Below are positions 20,001 through 61,396 of a DNA stretch of 64,000 bases, piece after piece. Under the pieces are notes generated by a model. The model had not been told where the DNA came from. It saw only the letters and a list, made by a program, of their open reading frames with translations, and did not search any database. The position numbers and the translations under genes were made by a program. Position 1 is the first letter of the stretch. Each line of letters starts with the position of its first letter. The DNA is from Brachionus koreanus (taxonomy: Eukaryota; Rotifera; Eurotatoria; Ploima; Brachionidae). The stretch spans positions 2,636,929 through 2,700,928 of the forward strand of contig PJRA01000412.1 of assembly GCA_016987375.1 (NCBI GenBank). The letters are read 5' to 3'.

Positions 20001-20102
20001 ATGATGAGGTTTGTGCTCTTCGTCTGGCTCATTTTCCCCAATGGAAAATTTGACCGCATCAGACTCGTCAATTATCGGATTAGAAGGCTTAAAATTACTC
20101 AT
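14096..20102 (-). CDS. Na+-coupled bicarbonate transporter, SLC4 family, copy A
   Basis: Sixteen exons join in frame to 1,080 residues: 20102-19787, 19699-19359, 19263-19204, 19000-18755, 18687-18541, 18418-18119, 18057-17924, 17335-17214, 17149-16686, 16630-16463, 16408-16341, 16278-16183, 15051-14964, 14909-14664, 14600-14445 and 14386-14096. It has the cytoplasmic band-3-type N-domain ([20 protein letters not shown], then [13 protein letters not shown]) and the anion-exchanger membrane domain. NBC-type marks include [65 protein letters not shown] and [14 protein letters not shown]. These place it with Na+/HCO3- cotransporters rather than Cl-/HCO3- exchangers; role: plasma-membrane bicarbonate uptake and pH control. 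The loop after TM5 has sequons NNT and NES. The last residues are STSL, a class I PDZ-binding pattern like that of vertebrate NBCn1 (ETSL). Exon 3 (60 nt) is the least certain. Confidence 0.9.
15052..16182. other. Long intron of SLC4 copy A with an antisense coding-like pocket
   Basis: The intron is 1.1 kb. At about 15694-15827 on the plus strand an open stretch has higher GC and protein-like composition ([20 protein letters not shown]). It is bounded by an acceptor-like ttgaag and a donor-like gtagaa. I do not recognise the peptide; it may be a gene fragment or a nested exon. The rest is AT-rich. Confidence 0.4.
17336..17923. other. Intron of SLC4 copy A
   Basis: A 588 bp AT-rich intron splitting a Lys codon (AA|A) between the QFS and DNGIDYMG segments. 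The split position is shared with copy B. Nothing else recognised. Confidence 0.6.
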
Positions 20103-23731: not shown

Positions 23732-26700
23732 CTAAGCATCTGTGTCTACAACAACTATTTGTGGCGGCGGAGGGCGGTTCTTGTTCGAGCCAACAATGTT
23801 TTTCAACAAAAAAGGCTCCTTTATTTTTTCTTTAACACTAACACGTGTTCCATATTTGTCTAAAGTGTATAAATCATTTTTAGAATTTCTTTTGGCATCT
23901 AGCATCACTTTGTCGATTTCACATTTTGACTTCTTTTTTGACTCTAGCACTTGATCTAAATAGTAAAGTTCTTTTTGAGTAAAAACATAGTCTAGCAGTT
24001 GGCGTATTCCAACCAACGCAAGTACCATAACAGGAAATAATATGCTAATGGTTTTGTTTGTCTTTATCAAAAATAGGACTATTAGACACAAAATTTGAAT
24101 TAGTGTAAACGTGTGAACTTTGTATGTGCGGACAAATCTGAGAAATGGATAGTCCGGCTGATGCTTTTCGGGCATCAAGATTATCATAAGTCTTTGCATA
24201 AACTGCATGCCATTAAGCGAAGCTATACCCATGTATAAAAATATTCCATATAGAACTGGCATCGGAATTCTCTTTAAAATAAAATTCAAGTAGTTTTATG
24301 TTAACATATTCAAATAGTTCAAATACTTGTAGATATTTTGCCAAAAAAACTGATGATCCGATCAGAGCAAAGACTACTACACCAGTCAAGCGCTGTTCTA
24401 TAACACCCAAGAACCTTTAATATTTTCAAATATTTTCAAATTTTTTTTTTTTAATTTTTTTACTTGGGCTTTTCACCCGGAACACTTGAATCGGACTCTT
24501 TACGCAAACTATTGATATTGTTAATTGATAAAACAGTTGCAGCAACAAACCAAGGTATGCTTTACGAAAAGATGCATTTTATTCAAATTTATATGATTTC
24601 TTTTTTATTATTTTACCCTAATAGAGAGTTAATGACAATGGTAATTGCAATAATGAGCAAGTCTAAATGATAGCCAAATGATTTCTAAAAAAAATTTAAT
24701 TAGAGATTTTTTATTTATTCATTTATTTGTTTATTTATCTTTATTTGATTCCAATAAGTCTCAACAAAGTGATCAACTATTAGATAAAATTTCAAATGAA
24801 TCAAATATTTTGTAAGATAAGAGCCTTTGCAACATACATTACTGATAAATAAAATTAAATTGGTCTTGAAAAAAATTGAAAAATTTTCCAAGTTTTAAAA
24901 GAACTGTTCAGTCTATTTTGCTTATTGTGAAAATAAAGTATGTTTGAATTATCGTTTTGTTTCTAAGACTTATCAAAAGCCTAGTAGATAAATTAGTTTA
25001 TTAGATTTAGTAGATTTTTTCGTATTTATTTCATAGCAATAATTCATTCTGTTCACTAGATGTTTTTTGAATTTATAGCTAAAAAAATTGCGTTGATTAG
25101 ATCATATTTTTTTGTCCATGATCACAGTCTTTCAATTAGCAAAGCATTTACAAATCAATGTTGAACTTTATTCTATCCTTAATGATGTTTAGCTTGAAAC
25201 AAATTTTAAATAAAAATCAAATTATAAACTTTGAAATTGTTAACATAACCTTTTGGTTTCATTTTAAAAATCTAAAGCGAAACAATACTAGAAAAAAAAG
25301 CTAAAAATCTACTTGATAATAACAAAAAACTACTCTAATTTAAAACAAGAAGAAAATAGATTTTAAAACAACTCTATATAATAATAATATTTATTTGCAA
25401 AGCAAATTAGTTCAACAAATTTTTACTTATTACCCATTATTAGTTAAAATTCTTGAAAGCTATATTTTTTGCTTTTGTTTTCTAAATAAATTATTTAAAT
25501 TTTTAAAGTTTAAATAAGAACGATCTGCCGATTTTTTTCAAAATAAATATTTTAAATTGAGCTTTAAAATTTTCAAAAGTCTTACGATAGCAATTTTACA
25601 TTTAATTTGATATGCTTATCGTGAGAATTTTTTTGATTTTAATTAATCATAAAAGTTATAAATATAGAATAGGCTCAAAAATCATCTTAGATACTTTTAG
25701 TTTATGCTCTTTTCTGTTCATTATTACGGCTGTAATATGCTGGTCCATAAAAATTAGAATTGAAGATAGCATAGCAGGTACACTGGCCATTAAAATCAAC
25801 CATTTTTTATGGTTAACGCGCTCCAAAGGATATATAAACCAGCCTCGATTTGAAATAGTTGTCTGTCATTTTAATTATTAATTATTTAGATTAATCAAAA
25901 AAAATCTTTTTTCTATTTTTTACCTCAAACTTAAGAGGAACTGCCAATTTTGGTGTATTTAAATTCAAATAACTATCTAATAGAACATTAATTAAAATTG
26001 TAAAAATGACTCCAAAATCACTGATTTTTGTTCGAATCTAAAAATTTTTATCTATCAAGGGCTAAATAAAATGATGAAAGTTGTTACAGATGATGGAAAA
26101 AAGCTTGTAAACTTGAAACTTTTGAAACTCATTGCCATCAAAAATGTTGAGATGAATAAAAATACAGAAAAAAAGAACACATCAGGTACATAATTGCAAT
26201 TAGCTAATGTCTTGTTAATTTCACACTTAAAAATAAAAATTAAAAAAATTGATTCAATTTTAGTTTTGATTTACTTGAGTAAGATTGGTTTCAGTTGAAT
26301 TTCTACATTTGCTACAAATTAAATAATTTTGCAAATATGTCACCGGATTGTTTGAATATTTATATGATTTATTTATTTTTATCAATTGCATTATTGACTC
26401 TTGAATGAAAATGAAAGCAATCAAAGCAGCAAAGCTTTCCTCTATTGATTTTGATTTTAAATAAGCACTTTCCAGAAGTTTATTCATAAAAATTACCAGT
26501 GAATCTAGTTATATATTTTACGAAGGCACTTATGTCAAAGCAAACAATTAGTATGAGAAAAAAAGCCATCCATAAGCCGACCCAAGCACGAAAGCCCATG
26601 TAGTCTATTTCGTATTGTCTTCAATTAAAAATTTGAAATAAAAATTTTCTTCTTAAACTAAATTTAAGCCTACTTGCAAACATTGTTTAAAATTTTTTCT

Positions 26701-28548
26701 AAAATTTAAAAAAAAATCTAAAAATTTTTTGTTTTATTTGAGTTAGACAAGTTTACCGAAGACAAGTACAGGTCCAGTACTTCCCAAAATACTGAGAGGT
26801 TGGCCTGAAAACAAACTAAACAAAATGCCACATATTGCACCGGACACTAAGCTTTCAATGGCTGACTAAAACAATTAATTTTTGATTAAATGGATTGAAA
26901 TTTAAATCTAAAAAATTACCATATTGTTATCAGTTGCCGCACCCAAAAGTCCTAGAGTTAATTTTTGAAAATTATTTTGAAAAATTGATCTTGATTTATA
27001 AATAATTACCTCCAAATGTTATAATCGGTGCTAAACAAGCAAAATACATGAACATAATTGATGACAAACACTGAATATTAAGTCCATCTCTAAAATCACT
27101 TGCATACCATGGTATCTTGCGTTTCAAATCATCTATTAGTCCGCCACAAAATCTTAATTATTTTCATGTAATAGAGAATGCATTATTTGCTTAATTTAAA
27201 TTTACTTTCCGGTAAATTTGAGCTCTGATCCAACTTCATTTATTTTTATTTCCGCAACTTCGGGATTCAATTCTGAGGATTCATTTATTTTGTTAATTTG
27301 AGCAATTCTCTCTAAGCGTTCTTCTTTAATGGGAGTCTTTTCTGGTGGTTCTAGCCTCATATTTGGATCCCATTCACCAGGCGGTATCACCGTAAGCTGA
27401 TCTAAAAATTGATCAAAACCTTTGAGCAATTGAACTTTACTCTTTGATGAATAGGCAACTTCAAGAAAAATCTAAATTTTCAGATTAAATTTTAAGAAAA
27501 ATTTAAATTAATAAATAAAGTACTTCATCGCTCATCAAGGTAGCCATAGATCTTCCCATTTCACGGTACCGTTCTATATTTCCCTTGGGACCTAGGAGTA
27601 TGAACAAAAAGCGTGTGGGGACAGACACTTCAGTTAGGTCTCCGAGCATTGCTGATTTTGAAAGACGAATAAAAATAGAGAATTGATAGTCAAGTAAATC
27701 CACTTCTCCCACTAGAACATTTGCAGCTTCGCTTTCTTCGGGAATTTTTCTCAAAAAAGATTGATTGGCTTTGAATGCATGTCTACTTGAATTAGACATT
27801 GAGGATGATGAACCAAATTGACTTGACATGTCCTTATTTAAAAATTAAATCTTTGTTAAAAACAAAGCATTTAATTTACCTTTGGCTTTGAATCATTTTT
27901 TTTTATTTTGGCCTCTGAATCGTCAAAAATAAAAATATCCGAGTTTTTTTTTTCACTATTTTGATTAATTGATGCCAATTTAGTTCCATTTGAGCTTGAA
28001 TGCGATTTATTTTCAGCTTAGAAGTTTTTATAGAAAAAAGAAAAAATCTAAAAAATTATTTACTTACAATGACTTTCATGCATTATTTTTGTAAAATCAC
28101 TTATTGATTTAACTATTGAAAAAGTTTTCTTTTCACCCAAATCGAGCTGTTTTTTGTAGTCTTTTTCATGTTGATGCACATGCTTGGCTAGCAAAATTGA
28201 TTTGACATGCTCAAAATCGGATTCTTTTAAAACATTTGCCTGGACCAAAAACATTAACACTTTGTCTTAAATGAGAAAATTTTGAAATAATTTTAAAGAC
28301 AAAAATTATAGAAAAATTTATTAACCAATTATAGTTATCATATTGTTTCCGGAAATATCAAAAAATATCGGATTAGATGACAAACATTTTCTTAATTCGA
28401 ATAAAGCATGCAATGATAGAGTAGCTACATGGGGTTTGGACCATCGACCACCTTGTTCCACATCTTCTTCAAATTTGAGCCATCTAGCCACCTCTTTCCA
28501 TTCCGAGTTGTGAAATTCATTAACTTCACAGAATATGTGCTTTGACAT
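23732..28548 (-). CDS. Na+-coupled bicarbonate transporter, SLC4 family, copy B
   Basis: Eighteen exons join in frame to 980 residues: 28548-28326, 28265-28068, 28016-27880, 27832-27524, 27471-27206, 27152-27010, 26951-26920, 26865-26757, 26698-26674, 26618-26497, 26441-26275, 26225-26088, 26037-25924, 25862-25695, 24684-24617, 24559-24464, 24414-24327 and 24271-23732. Domain order and NBC-type marks match copy A ([73 protein letters not shown]). The N-terminus is about 30 residues shorter. The extracellular loop is shorter and has three sequons (NST, NLT, NKT). The C-tail is unrelated to copy A and ends DTDA, with a PPPP run before it. It has a 25-nt microexon (26674-26698), and its last 540 nt are one exon where copy A has three. 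A tandem paralog in the same orientation, upstream in transcription order. Confidence 0.9.
24685..25694. other. Long intron of SLC4 copy B
   Basis: A 1.0 kb AT-rich intron between the HKLK and KSFGYHLD segments, the same position as a 54-bp intron in copy A. Nothing else recognised in it. Confidence 0.6.
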
Positions 28549-31881: not shown

Positions 31882-34800
31882 TTAAGCACTCAAAAAATTT
31901 TTTAATTTTTGCTCATCTCTTTCCAACCAAGCTTGATTAACTTGGATGCTTTCAAGTCCTTGCTGAATGCTTCGCTGTGCAGCTGGCACTGGATGAGCCT
32001 TGAAAAATGCATCTACATCTTGGTAGTCTTTATGAGTGGCAAAATTTTCGGTAACAGTCTAAAAAGAATTCATTTAATTTTTCATATAAATAAATTTATT
32101 TTTCTAAAATTCACCTTGCACAAACGAGTGATTAAAAATCCTGATGAATATCTTTCATAAATGGTATTCCAATTTTCTTTGACAAATTGCCAAGTCAAAT
32201 CGGAAGACAATTTTGTGGATGTATTCGAACAAACTGCACAAATAACAGTCACTGAATCTTGTGATCTGACTGATGGCTATTTAGATTAAGAAAAATTTTT
32301 TAATTTTTAAAAATAAGAAATAAAAAAAAAACTAACAGATAGAGCAAAATTAAGGACTTTTTTGATCAAAGTCTCGGATCTAACCGATCCTAGAGAAGTG
32401 GCTATTCTCATTTTTTCCTCCTGTAAATCAGATCTATTGTGTAAATCAATTAGTCTGTCCAAAAGAGCCTCTTGACTGTCATACAACGCAGACGAATAGA
32501 CGGCCGATCTAAGATCAGCTGGGACCAATTTTCCATTAAAATGAGCCTCAAGTCTTCGTTTAGCTTCTTCGATTGTTTCACGATCACCATTAATTCCCAG
32601 AGTGCGCAGGACAGTTGCGCGACACATACCTTGTAGACCGCTCTCGCCTGGAATCGGGTCCCATCCGAGTTTTTTCGAAATTGGCTTCAACAATTTGACA
32701 ACAAAAGCTTGAAATTGTGGCTGAAAGTCAGTATTGAGCAATGTGTGTGACAAGCTCATTAAATTGGAAATAAGATCACGCCAAACAGTTACATTTTCTT
32801 CGGTTGAATAGCCCTCCAAAAATTTAAGAACATCAGCAGCAGACAATAGACCAGCTTGAGACAAAGCAAACACATCGCTCTGAAGACCAAGTCTATCAGT
32901 TGGATGTAAAGTTTGTTCGCGAATAACATTTGAAAGTTTAAGTAAAAGTTCTGGTGAATAATTAGATCGATAAATTCCAATAGTGTTCTTATTCAATTTA
33001 ATCCATTCATCAGAAGCCAATACACCTAGATTTACTTCATCTGTTCTATTCTCGAGCACAATTTCTTTATGAATATTTGGATATGATGATTTTGTTACAA
33101 TTGTAATTGGTACTTTCCATAAAAAGTTTTCTTGTTCGGCCGGTTTAGCTCCATTTGAGAAAAATCGTTCTTGACTAAGCTTCAAAACAGTTTCGCCATT
33201 TGAATTGACCAAGTGTGAAATGTTGATGTAAGGATAGCCAGTTTGACTAGTCCATAATTGCATAAGTTCATTGACCGGCTTTTTGGAGGCTTCGGTCAAC
33301 GCTTCCCACAAGTCTTCAGTAACAGCGTTTCTGTATTTGAACTTTTCCAAATAGTTGTGCAAACCAGTTCGGAATGCATCATCGCCAATGTAGCTGTGCA
33401 ACATACGGATAGCAGTAGCACCTTTGCTGTAAGAAATGGCATCAAAAATTTCATCAACTTCGGATGGAGGTCCAACTGGCACTTCAATCGGATGACTATT
33501 CTTCAAACTGTCCAATTCGAGAGCTCTGCAATAGTCGCTGTTTACAAAATGCGTCCAAATGTCAAGCTCAGGCAAACAGTGATCTACGCATAAATACTCA
33601 ATCCACGAAGCAAAGCCTTCGTTCAGCCATAAGTGAGTCCACCATTCCATAGTAACTATATTTCCGAACCATTGATGTGCTAGCTCATGTCCTACCACAA
33701 TGGCTACAGTTTGTTTGGACATTAAAGAAGAATTTTTCGGATCTACCAGCAATGCTGTTTCTCTATAAGTAACCAGACCCCAGTTTTCCATTGCACCTTT
33801 TTAAAAAAAAAAAATTAAATTAATTATTTAATTTTTTAAGCACAAATCTTGGCATCGATTCATTACCTGCAGCAAAATCGGCTATGGCTATTAAATCAAG
33901 CTTTGGCAATGGATAGCTTATTCGAAAATAGTCCGTATAAAATGGAAGGGTTTTAACAGCAACCTGATTTTTTAAAAATAAAAATTTTAATTCTTTTTTT
34001 TTGGCTTAATTTCAAAAATTTAATTAAAGAAAAAAACGAATCGATTCAAGATTTTTTTTCTATAAAATCAAAAATACCGAAAATTATCATTGAATTTTTT
34101 TTTATTCTATAAAGAACATTATTTTATTTTACAATAAAATAAACAAAATTTTTGATAATTTTTTTAAATGGCATTTTTGTTTTAATATTTGTCCTAGACT
34201 CACCAAAGCTTAAATGAGTTACAGCAATCATGTCCAATTTGGGCAAGTTAAATTTAATGCCAAAAAAATCAGCATAAAATGGCAAGCATTTACAAGCTAT
34301 CTGTTTTTTTCTTAATTAAATTATTTTTTTTTTTGGAAAAAAAAGTTTACCTCAAGGGCAAATCTACCAAGTTCTTGTTTACCCAAAGGGGTGTACACTC
34401 GGATAAGGACTCCATTTCTATCTTTATCCTCAATGTAGTCATATTCACCCACAACAAAAGCCAAAAGGTAAGTTGACATAATTGGAGTTCGATCAAATCT
34501 GAATCGCTTTAAGTTTTGGCTTCCTTCAACTCGATTGGCATCGAGCAGAGGCATGTTAGACAGGACTGTTTTGTTCTCTTCGGCAATTATTGTCACATCA
34601 AATGTAGCTTTTAGAGCTGGCTCGTCCCAACATGGCAGAGCTCGTCTAGCATCAGCAGCCTCGAATTGTGTCGTAGCTGCATATCTTTCTTCACCCGATG
34701 GATGAACATATTTACTTCTATAGAAGCCTTTGAGTTTATCATTTAAAATGCCTGTGTAGGAAATGTGAAGTCGTCCTGTTCCAAGTGGCAACGCTTGTGG

Positions 34801-35419
34801 AAAGGTAATGGTGCCTAGTTCATTTTGATCGTCTAATTTAACGCTTGAACTTGTCATCTTTGTGCCATTCGAGGTCTCGAATACTGCTTCTTTGAAGGAC
34901 AGTTCTGCACTGTTCAACAAGACAGTGTTAGTTTCTGAATTAACCTAAAATTTAAAAAAAATTAATTTTCATCCAAAAACAAAATAAGCATGTTTTTACT
35001 TTGACATCGATGACAACTTGACCATTGAATGTAAAATTTTTAAAATCAGGCTGAAGCTCTAAAGCGTAATTGACCGGAAGAACGCTTTTTGGCAAACGAA
35101 CAAATTCAGTAGTGTTCATTTTGGAAGAATTATTTTCTGAATAAATATTTCTGTTTTTTTTTTAATTGAAAAATTTTAAAATAAATTTTTTGAAATTTTT
35201 TTACCTAAAATTTAAACTTTTGCATATTAAATTCGATTTAGGAAAGACATTGTCCCGAACCAAAACCTGAGAGCGCTCAATTGAGCCAAGTCTGCTATTT
35301 GTCAGTATTTTGTAGCTTTGTATTGAGCTACGAGAATAATTTTTGGTCTTCTGAATAACAGACTTGCTTAATAAATTCCTAAAAGATAGCACCTTATTTG
35401 AGCCAAGTAGTTTTAACAT
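31882..35419 (-). CDS. NPEPPS: Puromycin-sensitive aminopeptidase (M1 family) with a mutually exclusive exon pair
   Basis: Exons: 35419-35205, 35150-35000, 34944-34351, one of 34300-34204 or 33963-33867, 33796-32337, 32276-32115 and 32058-31882; 951 residues with either alternative. It is a zinc metallo-aminopeptidase that trims N-terminal residues from peptides. The substrate motif GAMEN is at residues 353-357. The zinc site HELAH is at 389-393 with Glu412, the correct HEXXH-X18-E spacing. DAISYSKGA carries the catalytic Tyr. The C-terminal ERAP1-like helical domain is complete to the [18 protein letters not shown] region. Homology to cytosolic PSA starts around [10 protein letters not shown]; the roughly 80 residues before it are basic and nearly free of acidic residues until SIERSQ, like a mitochondrial presequence or the extra N-terminus of mammalian PSA. 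Translation could start at 35419 or at the internal Met in exon 2. Confidence 0.95.
33867..33963 (-). other. Alternative exon 4b (canonical) of the aminopeptidase
   Basis: 97 nt, enters in phase 0 (acceptor aaatcag) and leaves in phase 1 (donor gtaatg). It encodes [19 protein letters not shown] then IAIADFAA, the form expected for PSA, and the split Gly codon joins it to AMENW in the next exon. See exon 4a for its twin. Confidence 0.85.
34204..34300 (-). other. Alternative exon 4a (divergent) of the aminopeptidase
   Basis: 97 nt, with the same length and phases as exon 4b (acceptor aaaacag, donor gtgagt). It encodes [19 protein letters not shown] then IAVTHLSF. By hand count 16 of 32 residues equal exon 4b. 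The frame is open with intact splice sites, so it looks maintained. Including both exons would shift the frame (2 x 97 nt), and the intron before 4a is only 50 bp. It replaces the ADFAA segment directly before GAMEN with THLSF. Confidence 0.8.
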
Positions 35420-46774: not shown

Positions 46775-49700
46775 ATGAAGCTATATAAATATCAACGGTT
46801 TTTGCTCGTATTAATTATTTTGTACAATAGTGATGGTTTGTACTACGACGGCGAAACAACATACTCGATATATCCACGTTTAGATCTGCAAATATGTGCC
46901 AATAGCAGTCTAAGCTTTGACTTTAGTTTATCACTGTCCAATTTGAAGAATAGCTCGTACAGCAGCAATCCGAGTATAGGCCAATACTCGGCTCGCATAT
47001 TGCTCTATTCCGAACAACAAATCCAAATAAGCACTGTGTCAAACTCAAAAAAACTGATAAATAGCTATTTTTTGATCAAATACCTGCCGCCAAATCGTTT
47101 GATAGTAAACGACTACTGGAACATAAACGATGTACAAGTGCAATTGCCCAGCGACTACGCTACCTCTTGGTTCAGGTTCGTGTACACACGAACGTCTAGC
47201 AAAGTGGACATAAATTTGTATAAATTTGAGTCAAGTGAAAGCTCGGCCAACAATCGAATACCATCCATTCGACTAATAGCCATTTTTGGCAAGCAAATCA
47301 TACACTCAAATTTTGTTCTCGATGACTTTAAGAACGAACAAAACGAGCTGCTTGTCGACTCGAAACAAGTTACTTATTCTAAATTGTTCGTGGGCGGCGT
47401 GGGCGAAAATCCAAGCGAAAACAACTACGCTCTAAATCAGCTAAAACAATTGTCAAAATTTCACGGCTACATAATGAACTTGCAGTATACATCACAAGCT
47501 AGTCAATGTCCGTCAGAAATGTGCTCCAAACAGTCCATAGCTCAGAGACAATATGCCATATTTTCGCTGTCGCCATCCAAACAACTCAAGTCCAACATAC
47601 TGTCCGATTCGCTAATGATCGATGATATATGCGAATCGGATTTTCTAACACACGACATATGTCCCAAGGACTGTTCGTGTTTGAGCAATAATCTAATAGC
47701 GCCATTTTTTAATTGTGATTGTGCTGAGCCAAGTTTGCCAAAATCAAAATGCAACAATCTCAAAAAATCATTCACAATTAATTTCAATGACGAGAATTAC
47801 TTTGGTGCACACAATTTTGAGTATCCAATAATGCCATCATTTACCAAAATACAAGTAAATAATCAAGCAACTTATTTTGATAAGAATAAAGGTGTTCAAT
47901 TCAAAAATGCCATGTCACACATTAGCTTGGCGCCAAGTGTCGAACTGTCCGAATCGGACTCTTGTTTTTGGAACATTGAAGATTGTGTAAATGGATTTAG
48001 TCAACATTTAGTAATGTACATTGACAGATTGGACGATAGCAAACACAAATTAAAAGTAGTTCTGTTTCAAAATGGCCAAACGGACATGTCAAAGTTTGTG
48101 GCCTTTGTTTACAAGAGCCGAATTCACTTTTCTCTATTTGAACAAGTCGAGTCGCAGGAATGGATAGTGAGCAGTTTTGCACTCGATCGATTCAAGCATT
48201 TAAATCGCGAGCTAAAAGTGACTGTTACTTGGCTGCGCGACAAATACATGTCGTTGCACATAGACGGCTTTCTAATTGACATGACGACTAAGCCGTCGTC
48301 GCCGCCAGTCAATCAGGACGTGTATCTTTCGTTGAACACTCTGAACCGCTTTTACTACGAATTCGGCGTGCATCTAGTCCAGCCAGACTCGACCAAAAAC
48401 ACCGGCTACACTCTATCTAGTCATCAGTTCACAATTAGATCATTCAGTCGCGAATATTTCAACGAACCGGACTCACTCGACTCGAAAATAATAGTTTCGT
48501 CGCCGTTGCCTAGCGAAATAATACGCATAGACAACACACAGCGAGTCATGTACAAGATAGACAGTCCGTTAACAAGTGTTAGCTCGGAAACGATTGAACT
48601 TTCGTTTAGAACAAGTCAATCGGACGGTGTGGTGTTCTACATTCGCAATAATCCGCTAATTACTTATTTTGAGCTGGTTCGCGGTCAGCCCGTAATTGTA
48701 ATTGACACGCGAGTTAAAAATTTCTATCTGAGACCTCAAACAGCGCCGCTCAATGACAATCAATGGCACGAGATTAAGCTACATCGTGACAGACAATTGA
48801 TTAGCATAAATATAGACAGCCAGTATCATGACATGTGCGAAATAGTTCAAGTAAATCATCAAATATTGACCGGTGGCTATGTTTATTTGGGTCTGGCCGA
48901 TCCGAACAACATTAATTTAAGCGATAAGAAGACATTTGTGGGTGAAATGGTGCGTGGCAAAGTGACCATAAACAACGTACAACAAAAAGTTGTACAACAG
49001 CCGTACTATTGGCCTAGTGTGCCGGCTCAGCTGCACACTACAAATCAAACGGTTAGCATAGACACGTCGCAAATAACCCAAGACGGCAAAATGATAAACA
49101 TAGTCATAAATGTGTACGGACCGCCAGGTCTAATGGTAAATGCGGGCCAAAAAACCGAGACCGAAACTGAAACGCATTTGATCTATTTGGACTCATTGCC
49201 CGATACCAGATACATTTCGGTCGGTTCATATGACACCGAAATAGACTTTAGAGTCAGAGGCACAACCAGACTTGACTCGTTTATGATCAAATTTCAGACA
49301 AGACAAACATGTGGTCAACTTGTTTTGTTGATTGACGATTCGCGCAATTACGTTGGCATTGAGATATTTGACGGCTTTCTCTATTCGTCGACAAGCATCA
49401 ATGGTGTCAATCAACGACATCAAATAAGTCGCATTAGAGTAGACGACGGTCGCATCTATCAAATAAACATACAACAAGAACAACAAAAAGTAATGTGTTG
49501 GCTGGAATCGGACGATGCGTACAAACAAGCCATATACTATTCGACATCAGCATCAAGTCATCAAAGTGTGATAGTAAATACAGTGCGTGTGGGAGGTCAA
49601 GACGGTAGCACGTACGGCTTTTCTAGTCAATTGGGATTTGTTGGTTGCTTGGGCGCAGTTATATTCAATCAACGCGATGTCATTGATTATCAAATAGTGC

Positions 49701-52700
49701 CAAGTGAGAGACGACAAAGTTGTCAACAAGTAATACATCATGAGCCAGTTACTGTGTCGCCTGCTCAGCCAGTAACGAGCACGCCTCCGCCACCACCTGC
49801 TCCCGTGTCACTCGGCTACATTAGTTTCACTAGTTCAGCCGACATTCTTGTCTACAATTATTTTTACGATCACGAAAGACCCCTATTCGAAGACATTAGT
49901 TTCATATTTAGAACAGTTGAATCAAATGGCATTTTATTTAGTGCTCATAACAACGAAGACAATCATAATCAAATGCTTATTGGTGCCTATGTGAGACAAG
50001 GCCTAGTGCATGTAGTATACAAAAATTACACGTATACACAAGAGTTGTATTTTAATAGTACTATTGTCGACGATGGTAATTTGTATCGACTTAATTTACG
50101 TCGCAATTCGAACGGTCACGGATTTATTCAATTGCAAAGCTATGTGGGAGTAACGGCACTTGAGTTTTACACTCAACCAGGTCAAATAAAATTCTCCAAA
50201 ATAACAATTGGCGGCGCCGACGACTGGTCGAGAATAAAATTTTTTGGCACCAAATCAGACTTTGTCGGATGTATAATCGATTTGTTTCAGGTGAATGGAA
50301 ATAGTGTTATTAAGCCGGCCGATATACCCCAAGAGAGATACAACTGCAATGTTGAAAGACCAGTGGTGACAACTACGTCTAGACCGGAACCAGAATGGCC
50401 TACTTGTTTGTCCGATCAGTACACAATCAGCTTTGCTAGTGTGGAAGACGCTTTCATTTACAATCATGAGACAATTGTGTGCGAACATGTTGAAATACCG
50501 TTTAGGACAACTCAATCGAAAGGCATAATTTACTCGCATGCTTCAACTGATGCCTCCAATTACATACTTGTCTATTTGAGAAATGGTTATGTAAATATAA
50601 TTGTCAAAGACAATGGCGGCGAGCGTAATATTGAATTGACTGGTTCTAGAGTTGATGATGGTCTAGCTCACAAATTGGACATAGAATGCGAATCAACTGG
50701 CTATTTAATTGCCTATTTGGATCAAAGAAGACAAAGCTCTAGTCGCATTGAACTATACTCCTCTATCAAACTAAACACATACACTCTGGGCTACTATAAC
50801 ACTCAAATCTTGTCTTCTCGCTATTCCAGATATGAACACTTTAACGGATGTATGCAACAAGTTTATTTGAATAGAAAATGTTTGGTTTTAAGAATGAATT
50901 TTGATGCTAGCCGATACAGATGCAGAGTTGAGTCGACTACGACAACTAGTCGGGCGCCCAGCACGACACATAAACAACAAACATGTGTCAATGAATGTCA
51001 GGGACAAAAAGAGTGCTCGTTTGAGACTAGTAGTAGAGGTTTTGTTATATTCAATGGTTATGAAGCAGGCGCGCGACCGTCACATCACGATTCAATTAAA
51101 TTCAGCTTTAAGGTCACACATGAAAAAAGTCAAGCTCAAGACTTGCTCTCTGTTTATCATAGTGAAAAATCGATTAGAGTTTATTTGACGGCTAATGGAG
51201 AATTGTATCTAAATTTGGCTGCAAGTGATAGGAAAAAAATTGGACAATACTCGGGGCTTAACGACGGCATGTGGCACAAAATTTCTATTGAGAAACAGGC
51301 ACAAAGTTTGCTATTTAGTGTTGACGGCATGCAAACTGTCGAGAGACTAGTCTCTGAATTAGACTTGTTTGGCTCGGGTAGTTTGTATTTTGGTGCATCG
51401 CATCGTCAAGAAGCAGCAAATTTGCACGGATATATGAAAAATGTTTTTGTTAAATTTTCTGGCGTTGAATATGACATATTGGCTGCGGCTAGAGATATAC
51501 GCTTGCCTGGTGTGGCTTGTCATGGTCATGTTACACTCAAAAACATTGTCGAAAAGTCAAGCTCAAGTAAGTCTATTTTTGAAAATGAATAAATTTATTT
51601 TTTTTTTAAATTTAAAAATTTTCAATATTTTTTATTCAAAATAATTAAATTTCAGAACTTGAGTAAAAAAGACAAAGTTAATTTTTTTTCAACTTTTTGT
51701 TTAAGAGTTTTAAATGCGTAATTAGATTGAATTGATTTTTTTTTTAAAACTTAAAGGCTCTTGTAATTGCAATTCAATTTTTGAAAATATTATTATTTAA
51801 ATTAAGAATTTGAGATCTTAGCTATCGCTCTTAAACTCTAAAAAAAAACTTTTTACTTAGAAGAAAACAGAATTTTAATTAACAATAAAAAGTAAAATTA
51901 ATCATGCTTTTAAAACATGATTAAATGATCCAATCTTTGCTAGTTTAGGTTTTTTGTTGATTTCCTTTTTGCGCACAGCGCTAATTAAAGTTAAATTTAT
52001 ATTTATGCCTATATGTAATTATTCAGTTTTAATTCTATTTTATAAGCTAACTAGCCCAATGGTTACATAAAAAATTAAGGGAAATAAAAAACATAATTTC
52101 TAACAAAATAGAAAAACTCAATACTAATTTATTTAGAAATAAATCTTATTTAATAGAGCTTATTGTTTAATTTAATATCACTCTTTAAAACATTTTAGTC
52201 TGTAAAGCACTTGCTTTTGAATAGACTGAATCAACCTAAGCATCTGTCACAACAAGACCAGAATAAAAAATTACTTCAAATTTGTTTTTTTCATTCTTAT
52301 ATTCTCAATGTCTTAAAAGCTTTGTATAAAAATTGTTAAAATTTACAAAAAAAAAAAAAAAAATTTCTTAAATCTTTTGTAACTCTTTTAAAAAAGCTTC
52401 CATATTTTGAATTTAAAAAATGTTAAAAAAATCGTTGTTTAAAAGTCCAAGTCTTACAAGCTAAAGTCGGAAGAAAGTTATAATTTTGACGCACAGAGAA
52501 TTTTTTTCTTTTACACTCAAAATCTTGAGAGATTTTTTCGACCCTTTGTGTTAACTTTTCTCTTTACTTTTAATTCAATGAAAAAAAGGATATTTTTTTA
52601 CCAAAAATTAATAAATTTTTATTTTTTTTTAGTTTTAAATTTCTCATTGAAAAAACAAATTTCAAAAATTTATGTAATTATTTCTTTTAAAGACTTACTT

Positions 52701-55700
52701 TGCATTTGCAAGCTTCTTTTTTCTCAGTTTCTAATTACAAAAAAAATTAACTAAATTCAATTTTACCATCTAAAAAAATCTAAATTTTATTCTTTTAAGA
52801 TAAAAAGATTTACTCATTTAGAAATTGATAGATTTTCTAGAAAACTTTATGGTTTATAAAAGTATTTTGCCAAGCTTAATTGAAATTAAAAAAAAATAGT
52901 TTTATTATAACATGCCAATCTATCTGACCTAGTCTAATTTTATGGTCGTATCATCATAATATCCATATAAAATGATCAGTTTATTATCAAACACTATCAA
53001 ATTTACAATTGAAATACGCTAAACTAGATTTGATTATTAAAGTTACCAACAAAAGATAGTTAACCAAAATTTGAAATCTAGTATTTATTTCAACGCTAAA
53101 CACTAAATAAAGATAAAATCTTATTAGGTACATTTAAAAACTTCAATTAAAAAATGGTCTTAACTAAAAACATATCTACAAAACAACTGAATATTATTTT
53201 CAAATTAATATATTTCTAAATGGTTTATAATCAAATATATGTCTATTCAAAAGATAGACTAGAAAATAATTAATTTTAATTTTAATCAACGAAGCATTTT
53301 AAAAATAATTTATCTAATTAAAGTGTTGTGGCGGTTCCGAGGTTCCAACTCTGGTCAAATAAATTTTGTACCGTATTTATCACAATCAAGAGAGTCCAAT
53401 TTGAATCTTCAATTTAACACAAGTCAACCACATGGGGTTATAATGTGCTCTAGAGACGATAATTATGCTTTGAAAGCTGAGCTAAACAATCAAATGCTGA
53501 TGATTTCCATTAGTGATCTTAGATCACGGCAAATAGTGAAATCAGCGTATTGCCAAAAGCGATCGTTGAGTGACAATAAATGGCACAAAATTCACATAGG
53601 CAAAAAATCAAGATCTCAAATAGTTTTCTCTTGTGATGATTCAACGCAATCAACTCTACAATACGAAATAGACATACCTTTTATAAATAGCAATAAAGGT
53701 GTCGTATTTGCATCCGATTGTGTTTCTAATCGTGGTTCAAAATTTCAAGGTGAACTTAGCCAAATTGTTTACACACATGATTCAATGACCTATCTATTCA
53801 ACGATTTACAATACACTGAAGATCCCAGGTTTACATATGAAAATTATGTTGAATTCAGTCCTCAGATAACAAGTGAAATTCACTCTGATCCAAAGCCTAT
53901 ATTTTTTCGATCTGGCCAAAGTTCGGCTAGACTAGATCGTTGGGATGATTCAAAATTGGGTCGAATTGCTTTTGAATTCAAGACAGAAATGGCCGATGAG
54001 AACGGTATTTTGTTCTCTACAGAATTGGCGAATAATTTCTATGCCATCTTGATCAAAGACGGATATTTAGAAGCAATATTAAGTCCTCATCGAGTTCCCT
54101 ATGCTGATTCGTCAAGCAAAATTTCCTCCTACGATAGATATCAAAGACTGTTTTCTAAGACTAAAATAAATGACGGATTATGGCACAAATTAGAATTTAT
54201 GATGCTTGGAGATCAAATGGCCTCACTAATTCTAGACGATGATCATTCTAGCAAAGTTCGTTTTCCATACATGTACTGGACTGAAGAGTCATCTCTAACA
54301 TTTGGTTCAACATCTAAATTCAGAAAATTTGAACTACCTAGCTTTCGTGGATGCCTTAGAAATGTAGTTATCAATAATCGATTGGTTAATTGGCTATCGA
54401 CCGGCTTGTTAGAAAATATTGAAGTCGGTTGTCATGGCAACCGATATGAATTATTGAATCAAGACCATCAGCCAGAAGTTTCAAGCCTTAACTTGGACTC
54501 AGATGGTTGTGTTCGCTATGCGCCACGAACAAGCTCTAGTCAGGAGAGCATTGAGTTTTATTTCAAGACAGGAGGTGACCAGCATGTAATTTTGGACTCG
54601 CAAAGTGCCGATTTTGTTATTCATACTCAAGGACCTAGTGTAGTCATTAGGTCAAGGGATGACTCGAGTATGGCAGTTGTTGCTGAACGTGGCGTCTATT
54701 TCAACGATCTTAATTGGCACAAAATTCGCTTAGATAAACAAGACAATAGAATAACACTTGAATTAGACTCTAAGTATAAAGGAGAGTTCGTTTTGGCTAA
54801 ACGAACTAGTTATTTGAGTCCGATTGTGTTCGGATGTTCGAAATCTAACAACTTAAGACTAAATAGATTAAAAAATTTCGCTGGAGCTTTTAAGCAAATT
54901 CAGCATACGTCTCAAAGTAGGAGTGTTGATTTAGTTGAACAATTGAATGCAGGCGATGCTGATTTACAGATAGATGGACAAGTATTTTGGGTTAATAGTG
55001 CTCACACAGGCTCTTATGAAAATTCTGACAATTCGGTCACACTCAAAGACTCTTCATTTTTTCAACTTGATAATTTAAGATTTGATAAAAATTCTAACAT
55101 TTCATTTATGTTTAAAACAAATGAAGAAAATGGTCTTTTGGCATTGATCGATTCGGCAAACCAAATGAACCATATTTCAGTAGAACTCTCGTCTGGCTTA
55201 GTTAATTTTATGGTTCATACAGGTCAAAAAACTCATCGGGCTCTGTGCCAAACAAACAAATTAAATGACAAAAAATGGCATCATGTGTCAATTAAACGAG
55301 ATGGCTTGTATTCTGGCTCCTCTTTAGCATTTTCTTGTGATAATATGGTTCATCGAATTCAAATAAATGATCAATTTTCATCAATAGTTCAGTTTAGAAG
55401 TGGAAATTTAAGTTCTGCTTCATCACTGCCGGCTAATTTGTGGAATAAAAAATTCTCCGGTTGTATTCAAAGCTTGAGAACAAATGAGCAATTGATCAAT
55501 ATTTATGAACGAACAAGCAGTGATTCTCGTAAAACACTTAACAATCAATGTTCAGGACCCACAGGCTTGTGTCAAAAAGGTAATGTTTTTAATTCATTAA
55601 AGTAATTTGCTCAAAATAGATCAGAACGAAGAAAAAACTATCAGACTTGTTTATAAGTTACAGTTTTGAGTAGCAAAAATTTAAGTCAACGTTATGACTT

Positions 55701-58700
55701 GAGCTGTTGAATTTTTTTTTAAAGCTTCTGTCAAAAATACGGAAAATAAAAAATCTTTTTAGAAAAACAAGTCCATAGGAAAATAATAATAAATTCAATT
55801 TAGAAGCAAAAAAATTAGGGAATAGAAAAAATTTTTAACTCATTGACTTGACTTGACCTAAAACTTGTAATTTATAAACAAGTCTAAAAAATATCCAAAT
55901 TTTTTTTTTATGTTAAAATGTTAAAATTAAATTGAATCAGAAATAAGAAAAAAATTATTTTATTTGTATAATCATGGACAAATACTAACATATACATTTT
56001 AATTTTTTTATTGTTTTTTATTTTTAAATATCAATTTCTAAATTATTCGAATTTATTTCGTCAGCACTGCGATAACTGCACACCATTCAAAAAGTATTTT
56101 TACTTCTATTTTAGTTCAATACCCATGTATGATAAAATAACTTTATTTCTCAAGTTTACCGATATCAGGCACTAATAAAAATATTTAAACTACGAAAAAT
56201 AAGCATATCATTATTTTTTATTAAGATCTTTCTTTTGTATAAATTCATTAATTATTAATTGTAGTATCAGACACTCTAATTTTTAAAAAATTTTGAAATT
56301 TGAACCAAGATAAAATAAATTAATCAAATGAAGAAAATTTTTCAAAGAATTGTAAGCAAATTTTTCAGCTTTATTTAAAAAGAAAATTCATTAATACTAA
56401 TTAAATCTGACCGAAGCTATTAGACTCAAAGTTAAAATGTCTGACTAAAACTTATGATTTGGGACATTATCATTTAAAATTGATGTTAAAATTTTTGGTA
56501 ATTGTAATTTAAACAGCAGATTCCTTAAAAAACACTATTATTCAAGTGACATCAAGTTAATGACTTTATTATTTATTAAGAATTTCTTTTTGCTTTAATA
56601 AAATTATAGTATTTAACTTAATATCAATTTAATGCAGTCGATCTTTGGTAGCTTGGAATTTTGGAATATTCAAACAGATTCCAATTTCTCTTTGCTGTCC
56701 AGGTTAAAATATGGGATAAAATAGCTTTATTCCGTCTATAATGCCCATGTTCATAATTTTGCATAAAATTTAATTTCAATTATTCTACATTAGTTTTTAA
56801 CAAAAACAAACAAAATCTTTATTTAAGTATTGCTCAGTAATCATGAGCTAATTATTAATAAAAAATTCAAATTGAATTATGTAGACAAATTTAATATTTT
56901 TTCTGGAAATCAATAAAAATTTTTTAAAACAAAGATGCTTAGTTTTTAAAATTTATTTCATAAAATTTTATTTACATCTGATTAAATTCAAATTTTAAAT
57001 TTTTAAAAAAAAAGTCTAAAAAACCTTCTAGTTTAAAAGAAAACTTAGCTCTAGAAAGCCCGGCTGAAAAAAACTTCAAATAAAGCTATTAAACATTTTC
57101 TTTGAAAATCTATATTTTTTCTAAAAACTGACAAAAATTCAATGATCAATTGTTTTATAACAATTTTTAAAAATTTAATTTTTTATATTATGAATTTTTT
57201 TTGGCTATTTTTATTTAAAAAAAATTAAATAAATAAGTCAATTTAGTGTTGTATTCTTTAGTCTGATACTTTTGTTTTTCCTTACTTCGGAATTTCGAAT
57301 TTTCACAATTAAACTTTTTGACATTAAAAGTCATATGAGTTGCATTATCTGGGCTTGACTTTAGTTTTTTACTTTTAAAAAAATTTGTCTTTACAATATT
57401 AAAATAAAAAACAAATCAAATCTTTTATTAAATTTAAGTAATTTAAGTTATAGAATTTTCTTCTATTTATTTCTATAGAGAATTTACAAGACAAAAAATA
57501 ATTTAAATCCAATCTTGAGACTTTCGATTGAATAAACAGAATTTTTTTACATTTTAATCACTGATCAATTTAATCAATTAGTTGGATCAAGTGAATAAAC
57601 AGGATTATGTGGTCCCAAATTTTTAATTTAAAAAAAAAATTAAATTTTATTTTATTTTATTTTTAAATAAAAAGGAAACTGTAACAACTATGCTGAATGT
57701 GTCGAAGGTTTTAGTGAATGGAGATGCAACTGTGAGACTACATCTTACACAGGACAGAGATGCGATCAGCCAGCCTCAACTTTGTCCTTTAACGGATCTC
57801 ACACAGTCGAATTTGTGCTGAAAGAGCCGACGCATAGTTCTGTCGAGCGTATATCGCTCAGATTTCGCACCGGTCTAAGAAACGGTGTTTTATTTTCCTT
57901 AAAAAAATCGAAAAACGAGCCGTCCATGGTGTTGTCTGTCGAAGACGGTCGTCTCAAATGCGTCTATGATCGAAAAGACAACGATAAAGTGGTATACTTG
58001 GGAGATGTTCATTCATTTAACAATAACAAGTGGCACACAGTTTATTTGACACGAACAGGTTCAAATATAAAGCTCCAGCTAACCGACAATCAAGGTCTTA
58101 ACTATGAAACAAACGACTTCTTGGGAGACGAGTTCAATCTAATAGATTATTCACACGTCATTATCGGAGGAGCTAGGAGTCCTAGTCTGGTCCAAGAGCA
58201 TCCCAATTTTATCGGTTGGATACAAAACTTGAATTTCAACGGCAATGACTTGTTTCACAGCTATTTGAATTCGCGTTTACCGCCCTGGTCGTACAGCATA
58301 GACGGATATGCTGATCCAGGCGAAAATTCCATTCTACTTCATCATCAAATAACGATCACATCCGAATGTGTTATCACATTGCCGAGAACTCATTCAACAG
58401 ACAAATTCAGCATACATCTATTCTTCAAGACTGTTGATGAGAACGGTGTAATATTGTTTCGTAGGGGCAAACAATTTCGCTTTATGGCTTTGGAAATAAG
58501 GTCAGGCAAACTCAGATTTGTGTTCGATTTGGGCGCCGGTGTCAAAGAAATAGTCTCAAGTCAAATTCTAAACGATCGAAATTGGCACGAAGTGCGCATT
58601 CAACGATTCGACAGAGAGAAATTCTCTCTCAAAATCGACGACTATCGAGAATCGTTCGCCGACATCGGCACAAACAATCCAGGTTTGTCCGAGCTCGAAT

Positions 58701-61396
58701 CGTTCACCATTGGCGGACTGGTGCCCGGTCACCAAAAATTCGAAGCACACGTATTGACCACCAAGGGCTTTACTGGATGCTTGGCATCCATTGAAATAAA
58801 TAGCGACGCGGCTGATTTGTATTCGAATAGACTGAATATGTGTCCGAGTGTACAGCATGGTTGTGTTGATTTGGCGTGTTCGAGCGACACGTGTTCAAAC
58901 AACGGACAGTGTAGTGTTCAGAATGGTCAAGTGTCGTGTGATTGTGCAATGACGTCATACACTGGTGCTTTTTGCCGCGACAACTCGGCCTACTTCTTTT
59001 TTGGCAAGACTAGTCAAGAGTGTGGTCTAATAAAACACGTTCTAGCGCCCGCTCTAACAAATCAAGAGACCGATAGACTGGCGTTCGGCTTTACCACGTT
59101 GGACACTGAGGCACTGCTGGTGCGCGTCGAAGGCGACTCCCAATACATTGACATACGTCTGCTAAACGGCTATTTGACAATTGTTATCAATTTGAACAAT
59201 CAAGAGGAACTATTTGTCTACTCGACTTTGGAAGACAAAAAGTTCAACGACAACACTTATCATGTGGTTCAATTTGTTAGAGAAAAGAGTCTAATTTTGT
59301 TTCAAGTGGACAATTTTGAACAAATGAGATTTAGTCTACAATCGGCTGCAACAAACACAAATTGTGTGTTTAAAACTCAACGATTTGTTTACATCGGCTC
59401 AGTGGACATAACAGCTAGCAAAAATCCGGACTGTTTCTATGGCATAATAACTGGCGTTTATTTCAATCAAATCTATGTTCTAAACGAAGGCAGCAAGTAC
59501 GGCGAGGTGGAAATTGTGGACCATCGCTACATAGTCATTGATATAGCCGATGTGAATCGAAATCGAACAAAACCCCTATTGCCCGATTTGACATGTCCAC
59601 TTGGCTATTCGAAAGAGATAGACGTTTGCATATTTAGCATTTGTCCACTAAATTCGGATCAAATAGCCGATACGTGTTCGTGCTATCAGGGCTATCACGA
59701 AATGGGCAATGTGTGCATCAAGCGAAACGAGACTAGTCCGGCAGGGGTGGTCGGCTCGTCGGCCAAACTAATACCGGCCAAGACAGGCTCGTGGGAGACG
59801 CCCATCGGTCTCATACTGGGCATCATATCGGGCATTGCGCTGGCCCTGCTCGCCGCAGGAATCGGCGCCCGTAAATGCTCCGATGGCTTGTGTGTGCCAG
59901 CTGCGCGAGCCAAAGCGCCCGCCACTACCACTGCCAGCAAAGTCGCCTCCATGTTCTCGAGCACCACTAACACTACCAATCAATCATATGAGATGAACCC
60001 TGCTGGTCGAGAACAAGTGCCGCTAATGCACACAAACAATGAGTCAAAATTTTCAAAACAAGAAGAATTCATGGCCAAGGACACGCTTGACATGGGCTAC
60101 AATTATTTTCCGCAACCGCAGCCAGTTGTCACGCAATCGGTCAATGAAACAATGGAGATGTATGAACAGACTATGGGAGGTGTTGGCGGCACAGCAACAA
60201 CAGTCACCACGTACGGACCCACAATTGCTTACAATTCGGGTTCGATGAACCATACTGCGCACCATGCGTCGCAACGGGACCTTGCCATGAGTTCAATGTT
60301 TTTTGCACAAAACAACGATTATGAACTAAGCAATGTAAACTGTGTTACCATGACTCCGAATGGTAAATACGCTATTATCGGTCAATCGTCAGGTGCACCG
60401 CAAATATGGGACACGCTTTCTGGTCAATTGGTTAGATCGATGATTGGCAGTGGCAATAATTGTAGTTGTTTGAGTTTGGCCTGTAATGGGTCACTGCTGG
60501 TCGGTTTGTCAAATGAGGGACCGGCAATTGACTCGCCAATACAGAGTGTGCACATATGGGAAGTGCAAACTGGCAAGCCAATTCAAATGTCGCATCAAAT
60601 TAAATGCTGTGTATTCGAGCTAAGTCAAGACACTAATTCGATTTATATGGCTGGCAATCAGCGCTTTGGCCGAGGCATTAGTGTCGGTATATTGGACCTG
60701 GTCACTTTTGAGCTAACCAAAGAGGTTAAATCCGATCCGACATTGTCTCTAGGCGACAACCCGGAGTCGATTGTGATAACACCTGACGAAAGACATGCCA
60801 TAGTCGGATGCAGATACGCATCGGGTACCAATTTTGTAGTTTTTGATTTGACTAAAGCGTCCGAAATCGGACAAACAAAAAGCATTGCATTCGATGCTGA
60901 TCCAAAGTGCATAGGTGTATTGAACAATGGCGAAGTTATAACAGGCACTAGGGGCGGTCATTTAATACAATGGAACATTCACACATGTCAAATAACCACG
61001 ACCTATGTAGATCTAAGCGACAATACGGCTCATTTGGGACCCATAAATCAAATAAGCATATCGGCCGATAAAGAGCATCTTGTTAGTGGAAGCAGTGATG
61101 CGACTGTTAAAGTATGGAACACAATAAATAAGAGTTTGGTCACTGTGCTAAATGGACACCGTGGCGAAGTGACATGTGTTTCAATATCGAATAACGACCT
61201 CATTGTGTCCGGATCGACTGACCAAACAGTTGCTTTGTGGAGACTGTTTGGCGGCAATCAAATATCAAGCATGCCTGTTGCTATGAATTTAATTGAAGTT
61301 AATATGGCCAAACACAACAAGACAATAGTTGCTATCGGTGAAAAAGACGGAGAGCAGCAGTTGTTAATGTTAAGAGTTATCAATGTACAACGATAA
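46775..61396 (+). CDS. Giant laminin-G/EGF receptor (neurexin/axotactin-like) with an intracellular WD40 propeller
   Basis: Three exons join in frame: 46775-51566, 53324-55579 and 57675-61396; 3,589 residues. The start has a signal peptide (FLLVLIILYNSDG). About 14 laminin-G-like domains follow at roughly 25-240, 340-560, 590-735, 810-970, 1012-1175, 1210-1370, 1410-1570, 1605-1750, 1800-1950, 1985-2130, 2155-2320, 2386-2540, 2570-2730 and 2790-2950. Many end with the FxGC/FNGC motif (FVGCLGAVIFN, FVGCIIDLF, FRGCLRNVVI, FSGCIQSL, FTGCLASIEI). EGF domains lie at about 2340-2380 (split by intron 2) and 2746-2784. A Cys-rich stem, one transmembrane helix (3059-3081) and a Lys/Arg stop follow. 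The cytoplasmic 508 residues are a Ser/Thr/Gln-rich linker and a WD40 propeller (3236-3589). The ectodomain resembles neurexin/axotactin-type neuronal adhesion proteins; function is inferred from that. The propeller is not part of neurexins as I know them. Confidence 0.88.
51567..53323. other. Intron 1 of the laminin-G/WD40 receptor
   Basis: A 1.76 kb AT-rich intron (donor gtaagt; acceptor ctaattaaag). Phase 1: the codon A|TG encodes Met at the junction. No other features recognised. Confidence 0.75.
55580..57674. other. Intron 2 of the laminin-G/WD40 receptor
   Basis: A 2.1 kb AT-rich intron (donor gtaatg; acceptor aaataaaaag), phase 1. It splits an EGF domain: GLCQK lies before it, and NCNNYAECV with SYTGQRC after it. 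The EGF Cys pattern is complete only across this junction, which supports the model. Confidence 0.8.
59801..59869 (+). other. Transmembrane helix of the receptor
   Basis: Encodes about 23 hydrophobic residues beginning PIGLILGIISGIALALLA, followed by the positively charged GARKC. It divides the laminin-G/EGF ectodomain from the cytoplasmic part in a single continuous frame. Confidence 0.9.
60332..61393 (+). other. WD40 beta-propeller region of the receptor
   Basis: About 354 residues with seven or eight WD-type units. Clear unit ends are SGAPQIWDT, SVHIWEVQTGK, TRGGHLIQWNI, SGSSDATVKVWNT and SGSTDQTVALWRL; the intervening units (SVGILDLVTFEL, NFVVFDLTKAS) are more divergent. The best repeats have the GH dipeptide (LNGHRGEVTCVSIS). 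The number of units is enough for one closed propeller, so it is not a fragment. It is in the same exon and frame as the membrane helix. Confidence 0.85.

Follow-up and report, generated by a model that had tools for sequence, protein, structure and literature searches.

The described receptors closest to the gene we report here are the neurexins. Alpha-neurexin (Nrxn1) has six LNS domains and three EGF modules arranged in LNS-EGF-LNS triplets, a single transmembrane (TM) helix, and a short tail with a 4.1-binding and a C-terminal PDZ-binding motif. Caspr/neurexin-IV also has a LamG-EGF ectodomain, which includes discoidin and fibrinogen-type domains, and a single TM helix. Neurexin-type receptors elsewhere depend on adaptors that they recruit. 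Among WD40 proteins, ODA16/DAW1, Rsa4/NLE1, TBL1XR1, Fbw7 and WDR41 are eight-bladed and soluble, and are not known to have a LamG domain or a TM helix. SCAP and PREB/Sec12 are membrane proteins of ER trafficking that have a cytosolic WD40 propeller and no adhesion ectodomain. In C. elegans, NRX-1, ITX-1, NLR-1 and BAM-2 are transmembrane proteins with LamG and EGF domains whose cytoplasmic tails are short, according to PMC12414531.

We analysed a window of 64,000 nucleotides of Brachionus koreanus DNA. Three of its coding exons, joined by phase-1 GT-AG introns, give a protein of 3,589 aa (Table 1). The third exon lies in a stop-free frame of 1,241 codons (57671-61396, forward strand), which goes from half an EGF module through a TM helix into a closed WD40 propeller, with the helix, the linker and the entire WD40 region all encoded by this one exon. 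The GC content of exon 3 is 36-68% by codon position, compared with about 20.5% in intron 2 and the 3' flank. Around the helix (59792-59911) it is 60-68% at the three codon positions, versus 36-51% in the remainder of the exon. Searching the window with Rfam gave no match.

Table 1. Coding exons of the receptor gene and features encoded by exon 3, in window coordinates.
Feature	Position	Strand	Content or basis
Coding exon 1	46775..51566	+	Start codon, N-terminal hydrophobic segment, divergent LamG-like region, five Pfam LamG domains
Coding exon 2	53324..55579	+	Four Pfam LamG domains, then first part of an EGF module
Coding exon 3	57675..61396	+	EGF remainder, LamG, LamG, EGF, LamG, stem, TM, linker, WD40, stop
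EGF2-like module, second part (to C2379)	57675..57763	+	Neurexin alignment; cysteine pattern by eye
LamG matching neurexin LNS4	57773..58324	+	
LamG matching neurexin LNS5	58340..58873	+	
EGF3-like module, residues about 2751-2783	58877..58975	+	Pfam EGF 20.2 bits (cut-off 21.5); neurexin alignment
LamG matching neurexin LNS6	58976..59521	+	Identity 29%
Cys-rich membrane-proximal stem, residues 2990-3030	59594..59716	+	
Predicted transmembrane helix, about residues 3060-3081	59804..59869	+	Hydropathy; followed by motif ARKCxxGxC
Predicted cytoplasmic linker, residues 3082-3228	59870..60310	+	DFGY/DMGY-type motif
WD40 propeller, predicted eight-bladed, residues 3229-3589	60311..61393	+	Pfam, AlphaFold2 model, PDB matches

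At least 12 LamG domains in the whole protein score over the Pfam cut-off, nine of them in exons 1 and 2, and the divergent LamG-like region near the N-terminus was recognised by eye. At E 0.1, Pfam gives LamG and EGF families only for the ectodomain. The best PDB match of the exon 3 ectodomain is neurexin-1-alpha, with which it is co-linear over residues 627-1225 (E 3e-105). The LNS domains match neurexin structurally, and the end of the ectodomain has the EGF2-LNS4-LNS5-EGF3-LNS6 order and fold of alpha-neurexin before a single TM helix. The plan as a whole is different, because the window protein has at least 12 LamG domains and two EGF modules instead of six LNS and three EGF, and a different stem. 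Its cytoplasmic part is about 500 residues long, contains a propeller and ends in INVQR, unlike the short 4.1- and PDZ-binding tail of alpha-neurexin. The tail also distinguishes the gene from Caspr/neurexin-IV and from the four C. elegans proteins.

An earlier note on this DNA, made from the sequence alone, had described a LamG/EGF receptor with a single helix and a WD40 propeller in one frame, a neurexin-like ectodomain, and a tail unlike that of neurexin or Caspr. The frame, the Pfam domains, the neurexin-1-alpha match and the length and content of the tail bear out all of this. The label "axotactin-like", considered by Pfam domains, found no support: no Kunitz domain is listed in the window ectodomain. 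A figure legend in PMC12414531 has AXO and a BPTI domain among its abbreviations. Nothing in the sequence analysis supports the label "neuronal" either.

Six of the cysteines in the stem are invariant in a 12-row alignment. The helix behind it is Gly/Ala-rich and strongly hydrophobic, with its hydropathy segment at residues 3062-3080. At the N-terminus there is a short hydrophobic run, outside the seven most hydrophobic segments of the protein, which we read by eye as a putative signal peptide. Hydropathy and this N-terminal run predict a type I topology, with a signal, one TM helix and a cytosolic WD40 part. At E 0.1, Pfam finds no family in the helix plus linker. The ARKCxxGxC motif behind the helix and the DFGY-like motif of the linker are present in most of 21 aligned relatives, an alignment made without P0005, P0017 and P0030, where the motif pattern is unmatched.

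The tail has the WD40 repeat signature and was modelled by AlphaFold2 as a closed propeller of four-stranded blades (pLDDT 86.7, pTM 0.85). Its 30 strands, like the best PDB matches, point to eight blades, although the structure search itself gives the blade number eight for the designed Tako8 only. Identity to the five soluble propellers named above is 14-18% in the PDB alignments. The gene resembles SCAP and PREB/Sec12 in being predicted to join a membrane protein to a cytosolic WD40 propeller, a comparison made by description plus a weak Pfam SCAP propeller match in the window frame (36.9 bits, cut-off 100). Conservation is uneven around the propeller. Over 32 rows, with P0140 left out, the commonest residue has a mean frequency of 0.80, 0.81 and 0.82 in blades 1, 3 and 8, and of 0.65-0.70 in the remaining blades. 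In the 21 complete rows alone the values are 0.85, 0.86 and 0.83 for blades 1, 3 and 8 and 0.70-0.76 for the others, so the incomplete rows, ten of which have no blade 8, are not the cause of the pattern. Blades 8, 1 and 3 may form a conserved partner-binding sector, in which some of the conserved residues are structural, and the sector is a concrete target in looking for a first partner.

We found no second copy of the WD40 tail in the B. koreanus genome among the best 79 of 164 candidates, and no donor for the WD40 part; the next match, and nearest other WD40 in this genome, has 47 bits. One separate gene (C28) is assigned as neurexin-type from the match of one exon to LNS2-LNS3-EGF2 of neurexin-1-alpha (E 1.8e-90), further LamG exons, and a short tail ending in EWFV that looks neurexin-like by eye (Pfam Syndecan 18.8 bits, under the cut-off of 25.2). 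Another gene (C4) has four LamG domains, an EGF module and a short tail ending in KKEWFL; our name Caspr-type comes from a segment that looks fibrinogen-like by eye, and Pfam at E 0.1 lists no fibrinogen domain in its frame. Since none is listed even there, the discoidin and fibrinogen-type domains of Caspr, which Pfam does not list in the window gene either, are a weak test for divergent forms. Because the neurexin-type and Caspr-type genes are separate, the window gene is a third, additional receptor, and we rejected the idea that it is the sole neurexin of the genome. A six-frame Syndecan search of the genome matched two syndecan-like frames only, and none in the window gene. Two syndecan-like genes with EFYA tails are at G000:C30:584287-584472 and G000:C5:395900-396037.

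Among 5.8 billion proteins searched, there are at least 53 relatives of this family. The searches need shared five-residue words, by which the best 2,209 and the best 7,989 candidates were scored. Family members were 19 of 25 matches, 36 among the best 120 of 163, and 17 of 28 in a search of 799 candidates bounded in length (about 330-1,060 aa), with overlaps removed for the total of 53. In the length-bounded search the last member has 232 bits and the next match 69 bits. Species names are given for 29 of the 53, which come from 10 species that are all rotifers (Brachionus calyciflorus, B. plicatilis, Adineta steineri, A. ricciae, Rotaria sordida, R. magnacalcarata, Rotaria sp. Silwood1 and Silwood2) or acanthocephalans (Neoechinorhynchus agilis, Pomphorhynchus laevis), in a database that also holds other animals (a Nematostella APAF1 was among the matches) and in searches that had no positive control for distant orthologues. 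For the four species that we looked up, NCBI taxonomy gives Rotifera or Acanthocephala, in lineages without Syndermata. Rotifers and acanthocephalans together are the Syndermata.

LamG and WD40 occur in single records of B. calyciflorus, B. plicatilis, Rotaria, Adineta and N. agilis, and several bdelloid species have more than one record of the receptor. The remaining 24 relatives are metagenome or read-archive proteins, and in 16 of them a single open frame has Pfam labels for both LamG and WD40. Since the LamG-TM-WD40 combination is present in distant rotifers and in thorny-headed worms, we take it to be a real, old receptor type and no artefact. Existing records are labelled hypothetical protein, unnamed protein product, neurexin-1a-like or WD40 repeat protein, and our literature searches, which covered titles and the starts of abstracts with most subscription journals outside their range, found no description of a LamG-TM-WD40 protein. 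The earlier note likewise named no described family of this kind. Not contained in that note are the separate neurexin-type and Caspr-type genes, the spread of the family over monogononts, bdelloids and acanthocephalans, and the stronger conservation of the propeller between classes. In one Rotaria sordida record (P0140, 545 aa), a TB2/DP1/HVA22 domain (Pfam 44 bits against a cut-off of 27.2) precedes the WD40 part, and there is no LamG ectodomain. This is either a head swap or a gene-model fusion, and with it the pairing with LamG is not absolute.

In the WD40 part, the window protein is 94% identical to P0040, 92% to B. plicatilis, 91% to B. calyciflorus, 55-56% to the bdelloid Adineta and 52% to the acanthocephalan Neoechinorhynchus. 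The linker is 81% identical to that of B. calyciflorus. We compared identities by region in a global alignment with 11 of the 53 relatives. Against four bdelloid or acanthocephalan rows (P0015, P0029, P0018, P0019), identity is 52-56% in the WD40 part, 41-57% in the helix region, 26-34% in the stem, 18-28% in the linker and 20-24% in the ectodomain, where the first 1,390 residues are unaligned in these rows and LamG identities are those of a forced global alignment. With BLAST, residues 605-1517 align to N. agilis at 21%. Between the classes, the propeller rather than the ectodomain is, by these alignments, the most conserved part, and the bdelloid and acanthocephalan relatives carry EGF arrays before the helix in place of the neurexin-like block. 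A WD40 tree of 33 rows (the window and 32 of the 53 relatives, midpoint rooted for drawing only) splits into 16 rows of monogonont type (100/100), three of which are the window and named Brachionus sequences, 14 of bdelloid type (100/99) and 3 of acanthocephalan type (100/100). Three such sets are the pattern that vertical descent would give.

We predict, with a probability of roughly 0.6, that the gene encodes a single-pass type I adhesion or matrix receptor of rotifers and acanthocephalans with a covalent cytoplasmic WD40 scaffold. The uninterrupted frame, the domain order, the recurrence in other species and the separate neurexin-type and Caspr-type genes are demonstrated at the level of sequence, and the propeller fold at the level of a model. 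Outside the cell there would be a long LamG array, which in monogonont forms ends in the neurexin-like EGF2-LNS4-LNS5-EGF3-LNS6 block, and the LamG heads would attach to matrix or to a partner cell. The flexibly tethered propeller would bind a fixed cytoplasmic partner through its conserved sector, and clustering of the receptor would gather this partner at the contact site. The covalent propeller would then do the job that neurexin and Caspr leave to recruited PDZ or 4.1 adaptors, and in this sense we infer the bypassing of recruited adaptors that the earlier note had suggested. Such a receptor would be neurexin-like outside and carry a WD40 scaffold inside. A protein-interaction hub has apparently been welded to a receptor and kept across rotifers and acanthocephalans, which makes a natural test of whether a covalent scaffold can replace adaptor recruitment, and it is possibly a molecular character common to all Syndermata. 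More tentatively, and at rather less than even odds, this could be a receptor class of Syndermata only, with an adhesion ectodomain fused to a permanent cytoplasmic WD40 hub. In this reading the hub would be under constraint while the outside could vary, and the protein might best be regarded as a WD40 scaffold anchored in the membrane whose adhesion heads can be exchanged. It may then act in a structure peculiar to the group. A role in the epidermis, where the receptor would perhaps anchor the syncytial layer with its intracytoplasmic lamina to the basal lamina, is our guess from the taxonomic range. The syncytial integument of rotifers does hold an intracytoplasmic lamina, according to PMC13403294.

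The main rival is that the propeller acts after release, when cleavage at the stem and within the membrane frees a WD40 fragment in a Notch-like manner. Neurexins are known to be shed and then cleaved within the membrane, the conserved Cys-rich stem adjoins the Gly/Ala-rich helix, and the long linker would let a free propeller act. However, the ARKCxxGxC motif right behind the helix would fit tethering to the membrane at least as well, and we consider release unlikely.

The gene could also be a neurexin orthologue that diverged and had its short tail swapped for a WD40 propeller. The co-linearity of exon 3 with neurexin-1-alpha and the name neurexin-1a-like on the B. plicatilis record of the family are in favor of this, but the same genome has the separate C28 gene with a short tail that is neurexin-like by eye, and the bdelloid and acanthocephalan relatives have their EGF arrays where the neurexin-like block would be. 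We find such an orthologue quite improbable.

We have similarly little belief that most of the product is a short-tailed LamG receptor or a soluble WD40 protein, the two being kept apart by alternative splicing or an internal promoter. The WD40 part of relatives does seem to hold introns, in several monogonont-type frames behind GHRGEV and in P. laevis at WDAQ/NGN, so the tail could in principle be spliced there. Only six of the 24 metagenome or read-archive frames reach the true C-terminus (P0018, P0036, P0040, P0133, P0137, P0139). The other 18 end early, 13 of them within about 35 residues past a GH-x-x-EV-type motif in blade 7 (once GHRGPV), and the motif pattern is unmatched in the other five. 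These 13 often finish in unrelated residues, which is what a genomic frame entering an intron would give. In P. laevis, P0089 ends within blade 1, and P0132, a separate record on another contig, starts at the next residues of the motif; the two are probably pieces of a single gene that the assembly split at an intron. P0018 (2,061 aa, on a 7,099-base contig) groups with P. laevis and continues across the P. laevis intron site, possibly because it derives from a transcript. Against separation as the usual outcome, a single exon of the window gene encodes the helix, the linker and the whole WD40 part, and the linker shows in-frame conservation.

We dismiss as very improbable that a frameshift, an assembly error or annotation joined two adjoining genes, one for a LamG receptor and the other for a cytosolic WD40 protein. 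The WD40 part of P. laevis does have a protein record of its own, but in the window one exon encodes both parts, LamG and WD40 are together in the records of five named taxa and in the 16 metagenome or read-archive frames, and the linker itself is conserved. We rejected a chimera of annotation or assembly because the same join is in the records of several species.

Returning to the receptor with a covalent scaffold, its intron 1 (51567-53323) is at the junction where B. calyciflorus P0001 and P0002 hold an extra segment of 90 residues, which is activin-receptor-like (PF01064 in precomputed labels). We found no convincing match to this segment in the window and none in a genome-wide search, run without a positive control, and it looks lost from the window gene.

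Other open frames in the window were recognised by eye. On the reverse strand, two frame blocks (18080-20120 and 23735-27844) resemble two copies of an SLC4-type bicarbonate transporter and have a motif in common between 18668-19000 and 27506-27844, and open frames at 32310-34944 resemble an M1 aminopeptidase, with the motifs GAMENWG and HELAHQWF. On the forward strand, an open frame at 4203-4943 resembles the transmembrane region of a GABA-B-type receptor.
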